Below are positions 25,547-26,251 of a stretch of 48,406 nucleotides of DNA, one piece after another. Source of the DNA: an uncultured Bacilli bacterium (lineage in GTDB: Bacteria > Bacillota_I > Bacilli_A > RF39 > UBA660); contig CALVJW010000009.1 of assembly GCA_944332435.1 (NCBI GenBank), positions 1-48,406 on the forward strand. The letters are read 5' to 3'. The notes beneath the pieces were generated by a model. That model ran no database searches. It saw nothing but the letters and a program-made list of their open reading frames with translations, and was not told the DNA's origin. How positions within the stretch are numbered: position 1 is the first letter of the stretch; every line of letters starts with the position of its first letter. Both the position numbers and the translations under genes were made by a program.

Positions 25547-26251
25547 TTATTCACTTACTTTGACCATAGATGGTCTTATGACTCTATCTTTTAATCGGTA
25601 TCCTTTTTGTAATACTTCTATTACAATACCACTTTCTACTCCATCACGAGCTTCTGTCATCACAGCCTGATGGATATTTGGATCAAATTCCTTATGAAGT
25701 GCTTCAATTTCCGTTACTCCATACTTTTCTAAAATTTGATTCATATTACAATAAATCATTTTAAATCCTGATAAGAATTTTGATACTTCATCTTCTAAAT
25801 TATCGTCATCCATATCAATTGCTCTTTCAAAATTATCAATGATTGGTAATAATTCTTTTACAATATCTTCATTTGAATATTTCAGCATTCGTGCTGTTTC
25901 TTCTTCTCTTCTTTTTTTATAGTTAGCAAATTCAGCACTCTGTCTTAGTACTTTATCTTCTAACTCTTGAATTTGTTTTTTCAATTCTTCACTTTTATCT
26001 TTTTTGTGAAACAATCCTTTTTTCTTTGTTTCATTTCCAGAACTTGTATCTGATTCGGTACTTTGTTCTTCCTCGCAATCGCATTCGCTATCTTCACAAT
26101 TGCAAGTTTCTTCACATTCACAAGTATCTTCACATTTGCAGTTGGAATCACAAGTGCATTCTTCACTACATTTCTGTTCTTCTGTACAAGTACAATTTTC
26201 TTCACAAGTACAATCTTCATTACACTTACATTGTTTTTCTTTTTCTTCCAT
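25547..26251 (-). CDS. grpE: GrpE nucleotide-exchange factor with Cys-rich N-terminal extension
   Basis: DnaK nucleotide-exchange factor, 234 residues. The GrpE part (about 90-234) is normal: a long coiled coil ([29 protein letters not shown]) and the beta domain ending [20 protein letters not shown]. In front lies an extension, residues 8-59, with 17 cysteines in CxC and CxxxC spacing separated mostly by Glu, Asp and Thr ([15 protein letters not shown] at its start), resembling a metallothionein. Residues 60-88 are a linker with [11 protein letters not shown]. The ATG overlaps the hrcA stop (TGATG) and follows AAGGTGAT, so the extension is translated in frame with GrpE. Confidence 0.95.

Follow-up and report, generated by a model that had tools for sequence, protein, structure and literature searches.

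A metallothionein-like, cysteine-rich tail on GrpE, shared with other proteins, in small-genome uncultured Bacilli

The heat-shock locus and its GrpE

The window analysed here, a stretch of 48,406 nucleotides from the small genome of an uncultured Bacilli bacterium (G000; 0.94 Mb, 66% complete), encodes a GrpE whose N-terminus carries a tail dense in cysteine. The gene sits in a heat-shock locus of the order CIRCE-hrcA-grpE-dnaK-dnaJ (Table 1), and its linkage to hrcA and dnaK is that of the family at large, in which both genes adjoin grpE in 127 of 130 loci. Because two CIRCE-like operators lie upstream of hrcA, against 0.02 expected in the window, HrcA probably controls grpE as part of the heat-shock response.

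A sequence-only reading had placed grpE on this stretch; the gene stands, and we add that it runs on the minus strand, from 26251 down to 25547, where the frame is open; read on the plus strand, the same stretch is full of stops. Its ATG (26251-26249) shares one base with the hrcA stop (TGATG) and is preceded by the Shine-Dalgarno-like sequence GGAAGGTGAT. Together with selection on the cysteine codons, described below, these features bear out the proposal that a start overlapping hrcA, with its own site, leads to translation of the tail. We considered whether the start was misplaced and the tail untranslated, and rejected this on the overlapping start, the selected codons and the lack of a second Met ahead of the core. 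An assembly artefact was likewise ruled out, since an independent genome of the same genus (G075) has the same tail.

Behind the tail, the protein is by profile and predicted structure an ordinary, intact GrpE. The Pfam GrpE model (PF01025) covers residues 73-234 (E = 1.4e-50), NF010738 scores 185.6 bits against a cut-off of 137, and the PDB sequence match is GrpE 4ani (E = 3.6e-36). In the AlphaFold (AF2) model, the core reaches a pLDDT of about 90 and shows all three elements of the GrpE fold; its Foldseek matches are GrpE chains (4ani, 1dkg and GrpEL1).

Table 1. Genes, protein parts and putative operators at the window's grpE locus.
Feature	Coordinates	Strand	Basis or remark
dnaJ	20706..21824	minus	usual Cys-rich zinc-binding region present
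dnaK	23700..25526	minus	downstream of grpE; Cys-rich tail absent, 2 Cys in 608 aa
grpE, 234 aa + stop	25547..26251	minus	translation, profile, PDB match
Canonical GrpE part, residues 73-234 + stop	25547..26035	minus	long helix (residues 79-124), then a helical region and a beta domain at the C-terminus
Cys-rich tail, GrpE residues 8-59, 17 Cys	26075..26230	minus	translation, DNA repeats
hrcA, heat-shock repressor	26251..27246	minus	upstream of grpE, 1-base overlap
Second CIRCE-like site	27259..27285	not assigned	3 mismatches
CIRCE-like HrcA operator	27306..27332	not assigned	2 mismatches

Composition and distribution of the tail

The 52 tail residues include eight CxC pairs and one single Cys, and between neighbouring pairs there are in most cases three residues, acidic or polar. 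Cys makes up 1.0% of five neighbouring proteins (22 of 2198 residues), and against this background the binomial probability of at least 17 Cys in 52 residues is 1.6e-21. The earlier description of this composition, in frame with a normal GrpE, thus holds in full. At the DNA level, the tail is built on repeats of 18-bp period (26089-26140 and 26178-26224), which G000 and G075 have in different copy number. The same architecture extends to 68 distinct Cys-rich tails, in which CxC accounts for 273 and Cx3C for 123 of 563 Cys-to-Cys gaps, spacers are acidic or polar, and hydrophobic residues are nearly absent.

Metallothioneins (SmtA/BmtA and the eukaryotic proteins) are roughly one-third Cys, contain CxC pairs, lack a hydrophobic core and are disordered in the absence of metal. 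The window tail resembles them in Cys density, pairing and lack of a hydrophobic core, and in the AlphaFold model it has no secondary structure and a pLDDT under 60, so that it is predicted to be disordered. It differs in being fused to a housekeeping protein, where metallothioneins are small and free-standing, and in its mostly Asp/Glu spacers; no metallothionein family among the Pfam or NCBIfam models matched either the window GrpE or its stand-alone relatives.

We read 129 GrpE tails from the host family, one per genus except for two from the window's own (G000 and G075, the only other genome of that genus searched; contig CALVRW010000017.1, loci L002/L031). The family consists of uncultured, small-genome Bacilli/Mycoplasmatota-type bacteria, and gut genomes account for many of its records; most close matches with a named record come from assemblies labelled as uncultured Bacilli, Bacillales, Tenericutes or Erysipelotrichaceae, and one is Candidatus Pelethosoma, placed by NCBI in Mycoplasmatota. 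The expectation that GrpE tails are short and acidic fits most of the family, 71 of the 129 being Cys-free and the median length 28, but not all of it: Cys-rich tails are common, with at least 5 Cys in 38 and at least 10, the threshold suggested by the sequence-only reading for such a search, in 11. His-rich, Cys-free GrpE tails also occur in relatives of the window genus (L015, L041, L042, L045 and L049), the one in L015, from G002, holding 23 His among its 74 residues. In other families of the class, the GrpEs that we read yielded a comparable tail only in G403 (L338; 7 Cys), and a tail search of 78 genomes gave no second clear case in that genome's family. A GrpE search found no match in four near-complete genomes of the host family (G013, G085, G095 and G142).

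When the state of five or more Cys was mapped onto a tree built from HrcA, the GrpE core and DnaK, it required at least 24 changes over the 129 tails, compared with a mean of 33 and a minimum of 26 in 300 sets of shuffled labels. The Cys-rich state therefore tracks the phylogeny incompletely, with frequent gains or losses. The sequence-only reading had named frequent loss among close relatives as grounds for refuting its proposal of a metal- or redox-sensing tail; such turnover is found at the family level, but not within the window genus.

Carriers, codons and ligands

The tail is not confined to GrpE. Within the window genome, the CxC pattern turned up at 12 places, of which grpE accounts for 5, while a reversed control gave 10; only the grpE matches sit in an acidic CxC reading frame. 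Across the family, C-terminal CxC tails occur on histidyl-tRNA synthetase (HisRS) in nine genomes (L264, L253, L262, L255, L263, L256, L258, L302 and L325), and C-terminal CxC arrays on single-cluster 4Fe-4S ferredoxins in seven (L254, L257, L261, L335, L311, L318 and L326). A related array lies at the C-terminus of DeoC, and other families of the class have CxC-rich tails or insertions on RidA (L287), on DUF1292 (L336) and beside an RraB domain (L284). Of all the carriers, the one that hints most directly at a metal role is, in the host family, an ArsR/SmtB metalloregulator domain with a metallothionein-like tail in frame at its C-terminus (L328:789-1274, minus strand; NF033788, 82 bits, cut-off 55). 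An internal Met in this fusion could also initiate a free peptide. Free CxC-rich peptides of 45-61 residues are encoded, again within the family, at L260:1633-1770, L300:1426-1611 and L330:1625-1771, with a shorter one near position 1700 of L334; they had no Pfam or NCBIfam match where tested, and no obvious metal genes or metal-transport genes were found beside them.

Some sequence motifs recur among carriers. CxCGCQ(E/D)GxxCTC and close variants are common to GrpE, HisRS, ferredoxin, the ArsR fusion and the free peptides, and C(T/N)xxxKC(S/T/A)ExCxC appears repeatedly in the GrpE tails of distant lineages. Carriers from different genomes thus have short motifs in common. As for how carriers relate within a genome, copying of one tail onto several proteins was rejected, the GrpE and HisRS tails of G056 and of G141 differing by eye. 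Nor does a rule of one carrier per genome hold: among 8 genomes of the family with a known non-GrpE carrier and a readable GrpE tail, 5 GrpE tails were plain and 3 Cys-rich, with no clear exclusion.

Its recurrence on several unrelated proteins gives the tail the look of a module reused for holding metal, and not of a switch particular to GrpE. The sequence-only reading had proposed the latter, a sensor that tunes DnaK: metal-free and metal-loaded tails would differ in DnaK substrate displacement or exchange, so that metal or thiol stress would adjust the DnaK cycle. Disordered GrpE N-termini do contribute to DnaK substrate release, according to a review (PMC12987570), and GrpE is the commonest carrier we saw. 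However, structures placing the GrpE N-terminus in the DnaK substrate site are absent (PMC12987570), many close relatives have plain GrpE tails, and a tail common to HisRS, ferredoxin and DeoC is poorly explained by DnaK regulation. What survives of the proposal is a translated, metallothionein-like tail whose Cys are under selection; with the same module on HisRS, ferredoxin, ArsR/SmtB and free peptides, and related arrays on DeoC, RidA and DUF1292, a GrpE-specific sensor is unsupported, and we regard it as unlikely.

A second rival holds that the 18-bp repeats simply expand at a tolerated terminus and that the Cys have no function, as the tandem repeats, their differing copy number in G000 and G075 and the repeated gain and loss of the tail might suggest. 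Codon changes speak against it. In ten independent pairs of Cys-rich tails, with cores at least 90% identical, Cys sites showed 11 amino-acid changes to 33 synonymous ones, or 34:30 when Cys was given zero weight in the alignment, where neutral Cys codons would give 3.3-7 amino-acid changes per synonymous change. Asp/Glu sites in the same pairs stood at 74:16, near neutral. Cys is thus retained while the spacers drift: by this comparison, the tail's Cys codons are under purifying selection and its acidic spacers change at close to the neutral rate. With specific motifs also recurring across carriers and deep lineages, functionless drift, already disfavoured by the codon test, is quite improbable.

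Retained cysteines might instead form disulfides. Swaps between Cys and His are expected of metal ligands and not of disulfides, and the clade around the window, which is supported on the tree, provides such a series: 17 Cys in the window genome, 25 Cys in G075, 5 Cys with 18 His in G028, and 23 His without Cys in G002. That Cys-rich, mixed and His-rich tails replace one another among nearest relatives argues, at the level of sequence, for metal-ligand logic over disulfide logic and so against a redox sensor, in which oxidative stress would oxidise the tail and switch GrpE. Dense thiols are oxidisable, and a thiol switch has been proposed for vertebrate GRPEL2 (PMC12987570), but the spacing here is CxC rather than CxxC and unrelated proteins bear the same tail, which makes a redox role very unlikely. 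Least probable of all is an arm that brings iron or Fe-S precursors to apoproteins during DnaK/DnaJ-assisted folding: several 4Fe-4S ferredoxins do bear tails, but so do HisRS, DeoC and RidA, which need no Fe-S, and His-rich variants suit Fe-S clusters poorly.

A putative metal store and its precedents

The reading that we favour, and hold to be probable with some reserve, is that the tail is a metallothionein-like thiolate module through which GrpE, heat-shock-regulated and presumably abundant, would store or buffer metal. The tail would form an intrinsically disordered arm at the N-terminus, its CxC pairs enclosing several soft metal ions as thiolate clusters, perhaps Zn(II) or, in stressed cells, Cu(I)/Cd(II), and a GrpE dimer would carry two such arms, or 34 Cys. 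Under HrcA/CIRCE control, GrpE could serve as a metal store and detoxification buffer whose level increases when proteins or metals cause stress, and may spare the cell a dedicated gene for a metallothionein. If DnaK were affected as well, for example by a difference in substrate release between loaded and empty tails, this would be secondary. Several observations weigh against such a store: no Pfam or NCBIfam metallothionein model matches; most family members lack the Cys-rich tail, which makes it dispensable over evolutionary time; and no obvious metal-transport genes lie next to the free peptides. Another role open to a disordered acidic tail is that of a solubility arm, though its Cys then need not be conserved. 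We extend the metal-store reading more tentatively, as close to an even call, to a transferable module that sits on convenient abundant proteins (GrpE, HisRS, ferredoxin, DeoC and ArsR) or free, with GrpE its main carrier and Cys and His versions interchanging, and that would form a distributed intracellular metal store.

By analogy, the window GrpE tail appears closest in logic to Helicobacter pylori HspA. This GroES has a His/Cys-rich extension that binds nickel; when the extension is deleted, cells contain less nickel and become more sensitive to it (PMC3856676). Both are heat-shock co-chaperones with a Cys/His-rich terminal extension, and the HspA extension has been proposed as a metal store and detoxifier on an abundant protein (PMC3856676). 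The core of the window protein is GrpE and not GroES, however, and HspA has a C-terminal extension with nickel destined for hydrogenase, in contrast to an N-terminal tail of CxC arrays with a putative metal, on a module found on many proteins. SlyD and HypB, proteins of folding or metallocentre assembly, likewise have terminal tails rich in His/Cys, and theirs bind nickel; they differ in their carriers and in serving NiFe-hydrogenase maturation (PMC3856676, PMC7055735). GRPEL2, the vertebrate mitochondrial GrpE-like protein, is an exchange factor of the same family, but its proposed thiol-based control relies on a conserved core cysteine that forms a disulfide, with no Cys-rich tail described (PMC12987570). 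In agreement with the sequence-only reading, which knew of no GrpE of this kind, we found no Cys-rich bacterial GrpE in the literature searched, which comprised papers readable without subscription. A metal-binding tail on a co-chaperone is already known from HspA; the more surprising part is the sharing of the module by unrelated proteins.

One caution that follows is that Cys-rich tails on housekeeping proteins need not regulate the protein that bears them. If the present reading is true, it would extend the single example of HspA to a second chaperone machine, and the family would offer a natural series, from Cys through mixed and His tails to none, for testing the identity of the metal and any change in GrpE activity. 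Provided that the tail does bind metal, these small-genome bacteria would join metal homeostasis to heat-shock chaperones, translation and electron-transfer proteins by way of a reusable tail.
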